DNA from: Candidatus Tectimicrobiota bacterium
GTDB lineage: Bacteria; JACPUC01
Assembly: GCA_016192455.1 (NCBI GenBank)
Contig: JACPUC010000028.1
Location: forward strand, 1 to 64,000
Direction of reading: 5' to 3'
DNA: 64,000 bases
Below are positions 50,600 through 61,216 of this stretch, in pieces (positions within the stretch are counted from its first letter, which is position 1; the number at the start of each line of letters is the position of its first letter). The position numbers were made by a program, and so were the translations under genes. The notes beneath the pieces were generated by a model that was not told where the DNA came from, did no database searches, and was given only the letters and a program-made list of their open reading frames with translations.

Positions 50600-51421
50600 T
50601 CAGGGCCGCCCTCCGTCGCCCCCCGTAAGCTGGTGGCCCAGGTAGAACGTCCGCAGCTCAGCTTCCCAAGCGCGACTGCCGGAAGCCTCCCATTGGAACG
50701 GCAGATCGACGATCTCCCCCGCTTGGGTGATGCCGGGCGCGGCTTCGAGCGCGGCCCGCAGAATGCGCCGTTGCTCATCCGCCTCTCCAGGTCTCCCCAC
50801 CGTATGCCCCATGGGGAAATCAAGGAAGGCAGCACGAGGCATCCGTACCAATGCCGCGATGTCCCGCGCCAGCACCAGGCAAATGGTGGGAATCCCCCGC
50901 TCCTCGATGCCGCGCGCAACCAGACCCACGGTCTGGTGGCAGACGGGTCAAAGCGGCAGGAGGAGCACCAGGTCAGTGTGCTGCGCGGCGAGCTGCTTGG
51001 CGAGCTCTGGCGTGACGAGCTGCAGCAGCTTTGTGCGCTGGTAAAACTGCCCGGTGATGGAGAAGTGCCAGGGCGCAACCTCGCCGATCACCCCCTGAGT
51101 TTCCAGCTCGAGCAGGCGCGTCAAGGGGAAGATGCAGTTGATGTCCCGCTCGCCAACATAGCGCACCGGCGCCGTATGCGCAAAGGTCAGCTCCTGCGGC
51201 GGGACCTGCCGAGGCAGGCGCACGACTCTGGGGTCGTTCTTGCTTTGCAGCGGCGTCTCACCGTTGCAGTAGATGGCCGCGGTGCTGATCATCGCCACGC
51301 GACACTCGGCCAGCGGTTTCGTGAGCGCGGCCCAGGGAGCCTCGTCGTGCACCGACCAGGCATAGGGGCCATAGGTCTTCGTGAAGAGCTCATCCACGAG
51401 TTGCAGGTAGTTGAACGGCAC
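50600..51421 (-). CDS. probable selenoprotein, GrdB/PrdB-like reductase family (in-frame UGA at 50948-50950)
   Basis: A single protein of 273 residues is interrupted at codon 158 by TGA in one unbroken frame. Before it reads QHTDLVLLLPL and after it PVCHQTVGLVARGIEERGIP, so the site is U-x-x-C, a redox motif. The flanks match the glycine/sarcosine/betaine/proline reductase selenoprotein B-like family, where Sec sits at the end of this strand. A 19-base hairpin 3' to the UGA fits a bacterial SECIS. The GTG start (51421) follows AGGGG; frame is open up to 51538. Automatic calling would give two genes of 196 and 109 residues. The neighbouring genes do not tell the substrate, and selA/selB/selC are not in the window. 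The alternative is a nonsense-mutated gene. Confidence 0.82.
50919..50937 (-). promoter_or_regulatory. SECIS-like hairpin in the selenoprotein gene
   Basis: On the minus strand ACCAGACC and GGTCTGGT form an eight-pair stem around a GTG loop. The loop begins 18 bases after the UGA. A loop starting with G and located 16-37 bases from the UGA meets the published general description of bacterial SECIS elements. It lies entirely inside the coding sequence, as expected in bacteria. Confidence 0.7.
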
Positions 51422-51707
51422 GGCGCGACATCCCCTGAGGTGAATGGAGTCCTCGGCGCTCTCCTTTCCGCTGACCAGAACGGCCTGGTCGAGAGTAGCC
51501 GGGGGTCGTATGGTAGCTCCCTTCCGGCAGCTTGCCAAGCGAAGTTCGCATCGTCGTCTTGCCCTACCTGGCGCCTATCGCTATGATCAGGGTGCGGATG
51601 GACACCTGCCCGGAACCGCGCCGACCGCGGAGTTCCTTCTCCTTCCCATTCCCTCGGCGCGACGCGCCGGTCGTAGGCGAGCGTCAGGGCTTTGAGGCGC
51701 AGTACGG

Positions 51708-58909: not shown

Positions 58910-61216
58910 ATGGCGTCGTACTCGGTGGTTGGCCAGCGCCAGCCCTGGAAGAACGCCCAGAGCCGCGCGCTGGGGATCGAACGCTATGCGGCGGACCTCA
59001 AGCTGGCGGGAATGCTGCATGCCAAGCTGCTGCGCAGCCCCGTGCCGCACGCCGCCATCCGCGCCATCGACACCAGCCGGGCAAAGCGCCTGCCGGGGGT
59101 GCGGGCGGTGCTCTGCGCCGGGGATATTCCGCGCGTCCTCTTCGGGCACTACGGCAACATCATCCAGGATCAGCCGCTCCTGGCCTACGACCGCGTCCGC
59201 TTCATCGGCGAGCCGGTGGCTGCCGTGGCGGCCATCGATGCCGACATCGCCGAGGAGGCCTGCGACCTCATCGACGTTGAGTACGACGAGTTGCCCGCCC
59301 TCTTCGACCCCATCGCCGCCATGCAGCCCGGCGCCTTGCTCATCCATGAGCACGCGGAGCAGTACGCTATTTTCCGGCCGCTCATCCGGCAGGGGAATGT
59401 CTGTTCCACCACGATCATCACGCATGGTGACGTCGAGCAAGGCTTCGCCGCCGCCGAGCACCTCTTCGAGCAGACGTACGAGACGCAGATGGCGCATCAG
59501 ACCTATGTCGAGCCCCGCGCCCAGCTCGCGGCGGTCGAGCCCGATGGGCGCGTCACGGTCTGGACCTCCACGCAGGCCGCCTTCGTCGTGCGCGCCGAGC
59601 TGGCGCACGTGCTGCAGCTTCCCGTGTCACGCATCCGCGTCATCGCCACCAGCGTCGGCGGCAGCTTCGGCGCCAAGGGGAAGATGGACTGGGAGCCTTA
59701 CTGCGTCCTCTTGTCGCAGGCCGCCGGCGCGCCGGTGCGCTTCGTCATGACGCGCGAGGAAGAGCTGAGCACCGCCACACCCCGGCACCCCTGCACCATC
59801 ACGATCAAGTCGGGCGTGAAGCGCGACGGCACCATCATCGCGCGCGCGGTGAAGCTCGTCTACGATACCGGCGCCTATGCCAGCTTCGGTCCGGTGGTGG
59901 CCTCGGAGGGCGCCCAGCAGGCGCGCGGTCCCTACCGCATCCCGAACCTGCACCTGGAGTCCCACGCTGTCTACACGAACAAGGTGAGCGCCGCCTGCAT
60001 GCGCTGCCACGGCACGCCGCAGCCGACCTTCGCCTTCGAGTCGCATATGGACAGCATTGCGGCCGAGCTCGGCATCGATCCTTTGGAGTTCCGCCTTCGC
60101 CACGCCGTGCAGGATGGCGACCTCCACACCACCGGCTTGCGGTACAAGGACATCGGCCTCATCGACACCCTGCACCAGCTTGAGGCGCACCACGACCCCG
60201 GCCGCCTGAGCCTGCCTCCAGGCCGCGGACGCGGCGTGGCGAGCGGCCAGTGGATGAGCGGCGGGCGGGCCTCCAGCGCCTTCGTGAAGCTCATCGAGGA
60301 CGGCACCGTGCAGGTGCAGACCGGCGCGGTGGACGTGACCGGAGCAAATATCGTCATCGCCCAGGTGGCGGCGGAGGAGCTCGGCCTGCCCGTCGAGTCC
60401 GTCAACACCACCGCGGTGGACACCGAATTAAGCCCCTTCGACGCCGGCAGCTCCGGCAGCCGCATCGCCTACTGCATGGGGCATGCGGTCCGCGAAGCCG
60501 CGCAGGACGCGCGCCGGCAGGTCCTCGCCGTCGCCGCCAAACGGTTCGGCGTGGCGCCGCAGGAGCTGGTGCTACGTGACGGCGCCGTGCGGGTGGCGGC
60601 TGATCCGACGCGGCGGCTGCCGCTCGACGAGCTGGCGCGCTACAGCATGGTGGTCGGAGGCGGGCCCATCATCGGGCGCGGCTCCTTCGTCGGCCCGCCG
60701 TCGGAGTTCGATGCCAACCTGGTGCAGGGCCTCTGCTACAGCTCCGCGCAGGACTTCGCTTACGTCAGCCAGCTCGCCGAGGTGACGGTGGATCGGGAGA
60801 CCGGGCAGGTGCGCGTGGAGAAGATCGTCTCCACCCACGACATCGGCTTCGCCATCAACCCCATGAGCGTCGAGGGGCAGATCGAGGGGGGAGTGGCGCA
60901 GGGACTCGGCTACGCGCTGATGGAGGAGGTGCGCCTGCAGGAGGGCAGAGTGGTCTATCCGAGCCTGCTCGAGTACCGCCCCCCGACGGCCATGGATGTG
61001 CCGAAGATCGTCCCCGTGCTCGTCGAATCGCATCCCAGCAAGGGACCGTACGGGGCCAAGGGCATCGGCGAGCCGCCCATCATCCCCACCAGCGCCGCCA
61101 TCGCCAACGCCATTCGCCACGCCACCGGCGTGCGGGTGACCGCGCTGCCGATGACCCCGGAGCGCGTCTGGCGGGCGTTGCAAGCGGCGTCGCCAGCCGC
61201 TTGGAGGGCAGGCTAG
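58910..61216 (+). CDS. molybdenum hydroxylase large subunit (third copy)
   Basis: The 768-residue molybdopterin subunit has the hammerhead domain at the N-terminus, GGSFGAK at 250-256 and GAKGIGEPP near the C-terminus with the catalytic glutamate. The loop that normally reads R-G-F-G is RCHG (365-368), an unusual cysteine at that position. As with the copy at 3928, no [2Fe-2S] or FAD partner is adjacent. The start follows AAGGAGAG. It is divergent from the alpha/beta hydrolase. Substrate is not predictable. Confidence 0.86.
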   Translation: MASYSVVGQRQPWKNAQSRALGIERYAADLKLAGMLHAKLLRSPVPHAAIRAIDTSRAKRLPGVRAVLCAGDIPRVLFGHYGNIIQDQPLLAYDRVRFIGEPVAAVAAIDADIAEEACDLIDVEYDELPALFDPIAAMQPGALLIHEHAEQYAIFRPLIRQGNVCSTTIITHGDVEQGFAAAEHLFEQTYETQMAHQTYVEPRAQLAAVEPDGRVTVWTSTQAAFVVRAELAHVLQLPVSRIRVIATSVGGSFGAKGKMDWEPYCVLLSQAAGAPVRFVMTREEELSTATPRHPCTITIKSGVKRDGTIIARAVKLVYDTGAYASFGPVVASEGAQQARGPYRIPNLHLESHAVYTNKVSAACMRCHGTPQPTFAFESHMDSIAAELGIDPLEFRLRHAVQDGDLHTTGLRYKDIGLIDTLHQLEAHHDPGRLSLPPGRGRGVASGQWMSGGRASSAFVKLIEDGTVQVQTGAVDVTGANIVIAQVAAEELGLPVESVNTTAVDTELSPFDAGSSGSRIAYCMGHAVREAAQDARRQVLAVAAKRFGVAPQELVLRDGAVRVAADPTRRLPLDELARYSMVVGGGPIIGRGSFVGPPSEFDANLVQGLCYSSAQDFAYVSQLAEVTVDRETGQVRVEKIVSTHDIGFAINPMSVEGQIEGGVAQGLGYALMEEVRLQEGRVVYPSLLEYRPPTAMDVPKIVPVLVESHPSKGPYGAKGIGEPPIIPTSAAIANAIRHATGVRVTALPMTPERVWRALQAASPAAWRAG

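Follow-up and report, generated by a model that had tools for sequence, protein, structure and literature searches.

A predicted stand-alone selenoprotein of the PrdB/GrdB superfamily in a Candidatus Tectimicrobiota genome

The locus and its reading frame

The window analyzed here is a 64,000-nucleotide stretch of a Candidatus Tectimicrobiota contig. Its minus strand carries a gene in which a single reading frame continues through an internal TGA codon. The features of the locus are the following:

50600..51421, minus strand: PrdB-like selenoprotein gene, 273 aa, with a GTG start at 51421 and a TGA stop at 50602-50600
51432..51436, minus strand: putative ribosome-binding site AGGGG, read from the sequence, 10 nt upstream of the GTG codon
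50948..50950, minus strand: in-frame UGA, predicted Sec158 (homologue column and Sec machinery in the genome)
50939..50941, minus strand: codon of Cys161, the second redox residue of the UxxC motif (more than 90% conserved in 38 aligned homologues)
50919..50937, minus strand: core SECIS hairpin with an 8 bp stem and a GUG apical loop (folding, conservation and covariation)
50905..50950, minus strand: extended SECIS fold with flanking lower pairs, -23.2 kcal/mol (folding)

The TGA at 50950-50948 is the only interruption of the frame running from 51421 to 50600. When it is read as Sec, the motif becomes LLLPL-U-PVCHQTVGL. The first-pass annotation had interpreted two adjacent minus-strand frames as one protein split by this TGA and had read the PVCHQT that follows as completing a U-x-x-C motif; the frame, the position and the motif are all exactly as it described them. 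It had also expected ordinary annotation to split or truncate the gene, and an ordinary ORF listing does cut it into frames of 196 aa and 109 aa. Automatic annotation would probably enter this locus as a pair of fragments or as a shortened protein. The GTG start is backed by the alignment, since the homologues begin at the same place, with MPxxY or MAFFRY. Codon statistics are neutral for the second half of the gene taken alone (score -0.4), and this same half is strongly conserved. As many other genes of the window end normally in TGA, the code of this genome is not reassigned. At the level of sequence, the apparently broken gene is confirmed as one intact gene, with an internal UGA predicted to encode selenocysteine.

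The residue at column 158 in homologues

A homologue search unconditioned on column 158 was run over 386 diverse genomes, 29 of which had homologues. At 27 of the 28 loci from those other genomes the column is TGA, and at the remaining one it is Gly (GGC). A second scan, whose patterns contained Cys at this position, shows that Cys forms exist but not how frequent they are; it yielded 18 Cys and two further Sec homologues. Pooled over the 50 aligned loci, window gene included, column 158 contains 31 TGA codons, 18 Cys codons and one Gly codon. Sec or Cys at this position is what the selenocysteine call of the first-pass annotation predicts, and with the single Gly exception this is what the alignment contains. 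The Cys homologues belong to Acidimicrobiia and Alphaproteobacteria. On a tree of 47 proteins, the Sec versus Cys state switched at least two times. A search within the same phylum found only this genome, hence the comparison is made without close relatives.

Some relatives have not retained both redox residues: the U-x-x-C motif is replaced by Gly-x-x-Gly in one homologue (locus L066) and by U-x-x-D in another (locus L049).

Selenocysteine decoding system

The first-pass annotation had proposed a search of the genome for selA, selB, selC and selD. All four are present in the assembly (4.46 Mb, 31 contigs, 88% complete). The selC gene gives a selenocysteine tRNA score of 75.5 bits, above the cut-off, and is called tRNA-SeC(tca) by ARAGORN. 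The selB (366 bits) and selA (596 bits) genes are adjacent. The selD gene (389 bits; contig C3:190907-191827, locus L023) itself carries one in-frame TGA, and the SelD of this genome is probably also a selenoprotein.

SECIS hairpin

An eight-pair stem with a GTG loop had been placed 18 bases past the UGA. Both stem and loop exist, but the offset of 18 nt fits the start of the apical loop, whereas the stem begins 10 nt past the UGA. With the U of UGA counted as 1, bases 14-21 pair with bases 25-32 around the GUG loop. The published bacterial SECIS model has an apical loop 16-37 nt after the UGA with a G in the first two loop positions, a stem of 4-16 bp and an MFE of -7.5 or lower (PMC13188914). 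The window hairpin conforms to it, with its GUG loop at +18, its 8 bp stem and a core energy of -11.7. Testing the fold against such a model had been suggested as a check of the initial call; the hairpin not only fits the model but holds its offset in almost every Sec homologue, with the apical loop at +17/18. A scan of the window against Rfam gave no match, as expected for the variable bacterial SECIS.

The energy of the 19-nt hairpin (-11.7 kcal/mol) is equalled by only 0.9% of 2000 synonymous-codon shuffles (p 0.009). The whole 48 nt following the UGA are not significant against synonymous shuffles (p 0.15), because GC-rich shuffles also fold well. Comparison of the homologues shows that 89% of the stem cells are paired across the 31 Sec sequences, compared to 64% in the 18 Cys sequences. 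The covariation score is 0.261 versus 0.141 in shuffles, and none of 500 shuffles scored as high. The best single test of SECIS conservation is the pair 19:27, which sets the first position of a Ser, Thr or Ala codon against the wobble position of a Gly codon, where changes are synonymous. This pair is Watson-Crick in 28 of 31 Sec sequences versus 2 of 18 Cys sequences (p = 4e-8) and, when limited to GGN glycine codons, in 26 of 28 versus 1 of 9 (p = 1e-5), both p-values being inflated somewhat by kinship among the sequences. The clear contrast between Sec and Cys forms, together with the covarying SECIS, makes this family well suited for studying how Sec is exchanged for Cys.

Family assignment

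The best curated profile for the window protein is that of PrdB (TIGR04483), which matches residues 26-245 with an E of 9e-37 and scores 126.8 bits against a cut-off of 300. This significant domain match and the presence of UxxC at the superfamily-wide column place the protein in the broad PrdB/GrdB superfamily. The GrdB models (PF07355, TIGR01918) match more weakly and also remain below their cut-offs, with 15.7 vs 22 and 32.6 vs 65.45 bits. The GrdB/PrdB-like assignment of the first-pass annotation thus stands at the superfamily level, on the strength of the PrdB profile, but does not extend to either curated family.

The window protein resembles the D-proline reductase subunit PrdB in consisting of a single domain of ~240-270 aa with U-x-x-C at the same column. 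It differs from it in its motif, P-L-U-P-V-C-H-Q instead of the A-G-U-G-T-C-H-R of authentic PrdB, and in its gene neighborhood. Authentic prdB adjoins prdA in all three records considered (Terrisporobacter, Enterococcus and Ligilactobacillus), while neither the window nor any of 68 homologue loci, a number of them overlapping within one genome, contains a PrdA-like gene. A PrdA profile run against the genome, 88% complete, gave nothing above the cut-off, the best matches being GrdE genes. With GrdB, GrdF and GrdH (PF07355, TIGR01918) the protein shares a homologous C-terminal domain and a Sec motif. However, at 273 aa versus ~430 aa for full-length GrdB, it lacks the N-terminal half of these proteins, and no GrdE gene adjoins it: all three GrdE genes lie elsewhere, beside other GrdB copies. 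Among the closest known proteins are stand-alone homologues from Roseomonas and Haematobacter, 32-35% identical, in which the aligned motif is C-P-x-C-H-Q, with Cys where the window protein has Sec.

The 47-protein tree places the window protein in a 9-row clade (support 100/99) that leaves PrdB outside. The remaining members of this clade are the second copy of the same genome, a further Sec protein and six Cys proteins of Acidimicrobiia. Judged by the low profile scores, the lack of a PrdA neighbor and the separate clade, the window protein is a member of the superfamily but neither a D-proline reductase (PrdB) nor a glycine reductase (GrdB).

Other Prd/Grd-type genes of the genome

The genome contains five PrdB/GrdB-type genes, with exactly one TGA in each. 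One is a second stand-alone PrdB-like copy (contig C25:22704-23477; L002:1399-2283), 43% identical to the window protein, with a UPACHQ motif and with the same TGA column and SECIS offset. Three others belong to GrdE/GrdB-type pairs (C5:54622-57342, C30:92669-95302 and C31:28227-30969; loci L074-L077 with GrdA), and the GrdB of each pair has an in-frame TGA. A GrdA gene (contig C1:114841) also carries a TGA, in the motif CFVUTAAGAMDLENQ, and adjoins a gene for the component C beta subunit. All three GrdE proteins score below the curated cut-offs for sarcosine and fluoroacetate reductases. The three GrdE/GrdB pairs, GrdA and component C beta make up a predicted glycine/sarcosine/betaine reductase-type system that is carried by this genome.

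Alternative explanations

An in-frame stop is by default the sign of a broken gene, and the weak codon signal of the second half would agree with a pseudogene or a sequencing error. The paralogue and many unrelated genomes nevertheless have TGA at the same column, the genome has the full Sec machinery, and the SECIS covaries; a genome-wide use of TGA as a plain sense codon is contradicted by the many window genes that use it as an ordinary stop. Readings of this kind have a negligible probability. It is very improbable, though less so, that the gene encodes the PrdB subunit of a true D-proline reductase. Its best curated family is indeed TIGR04483, and authentic PrdB shares the position of the U-x-x-C motif, but the score is less than the cut-off, the prdA gene that accompanies authentic prdB is missing from the window and the homologue loci, the genome has GrdE genes as its top PrdA matches, and the protein branches in a separate clade.

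A further alternative is that the protein serves as an extra substrate-specific B component, acting in trans with GrdA, GrdC and the three GrdE/GrdB pairs. The presence of a TGA-containing GrdA, component C beta and three GrdE-like genes indicates that selenoether-type chemistry exists in the cell. Yet each GrdE is already paired with an adjacent GrdB, the window gene has no counterpart of the GrdB N-terminal half and is adjacent to no GrdE/GrdB pair, and the Cys homologues in the Roseomonas and Haematobacter records stand alone too. We consider this explanation unlikely, if the least improbable of the three. It is instead highly probable that the gene is complete and functional, that it encodes a selenoprotein with UGA-158 read as Sec, and that the product is a stand-alone, single-domain member of the PrdB/GrdB superfamily with a predicted selenol/thiol redox chemistry.

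Predicted structure and proposed mechanism

In the fold model (pLDDT 90), a β-strand formed by residues 151-155 precedes a helix formed by residues 159-174. Residue 158 is thus placed at the N-terminal end of this helix, with Cys161 one turn further. Sec/Cys redox pairs usually have this arrangement. Neither sequence nor fold searches found a convincing solved relative: the best Foldseek E was 0.013 and the best VIA Z 8.6 (12% identity), to unrelated α/β folds, a result that does not establish a new fold.

In the mechanism that we propose, SelB and the selenocysteine tRNA would read UGA-158 as selenocysteine, with the hairpin just downstream of the UGA directing the insertion. The Sec158 selenolate would most likely act as a nucleophile and attack an electrophilic substrate. 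Cys161 could then resolve the Sec158 adduct by formation of an Se-S bridge, which a thioredoxin-like donor would reduce. Family resemblance and the motif suggest a reductase function, and the window protein is most likely a stand-alone selenol reductase. Whether the gene and its relatives form a family of such reductases, distinct from D-proline and glycine reductases and working without a pyruvoyl subunit, is in our estimation evenly balanced; with an assembly completeness of 88%, the gene for a partner encoded at a distance may have escaped it.

Relation to known selenoproteins

The first-pass annotation had presented the gene as an unannotated type of selenoprotein. This is not the case: catalogues have included PrdB/GrdB-like UxxC selenoproteins since 2005, and the window gene is not a new kind. 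Forty-two PrdB-type selenoprotein genes were counted in the Sargasso Sea (PMC1088965), 235 PrdB-type UxxC selenoprotein sequences were reported from the Global Ocean Sampling (PMC2398784), and reviews list them as an established family (PMC9312934; PMC13188914). The marine metagenome 'PrdB' family (PMC1088965, PMC2398784), Sec-containing and environmentally abundant, is very probably the same broad family. The Cys homologues are already named 'glycine/sarcosine/betaine reductase selenoprotein B family protein' by NCBI. Literature searches brought up no work on the function of stand-alone PrdB-like proteins.

The PrdB profile matches at E <= 1e-12 in 43 of the 386 sampled genomes, with none above the D-proline reductase cut-off. 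The family is therefore common, usually with Sec, and 'proline reductase' is a misleading name for stand-alone PrdB-like proteins. The family constitutes a defined target for substrate discovery.

Genomic context

Neighboring genes encode a MerR regulator (convergent), a CopD-like membrane protein (divergent, below the Pfam gathering score) and a SoxA/TsdA-type cytochrome c. The first-pass annotation had described it as next to UbiD and molybdenum enzymes. These enzymes are encoded in the same window but are not adjacent: the UbiD genes start at 2412, 9108 and 21171, 28-48 kb from the window gene, and the nearest molybdenum hydroxylase gene starts at 58925, about 7.5 kb away, most of the molybdenum enzymes being encoded tens of kilobases from the gene. 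At such distances they are not evidence for the role of the window gene, and the genomic link is weak. In all, the 64-kb window holds three genes of the UbiD family and three for large subunits of molybdenum hydroxylases (2412-22553 and 58925-61216).

Clustering of the neighborhoods of 40 loci, based on simple ORF calls with many spurious frames, revealed no neighbor common to the whole group of Sec homologues; the single cluster to emerge was an Acidimicrobial one of acyl-CoA type. In Acidimicrobiia (loci L026-L034), an enoyl-CoA hydratase-like gene often sits immediately upstream of the Cys homologue, with acyl-CoA synthetase and short-chain dehydrogenase genes in the vicinity. These acyl-CoA-type clusters may point to the substrate class. 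In Roseomonas (locus L111), the Cys homologue is located tail to tail with a SelO gene.
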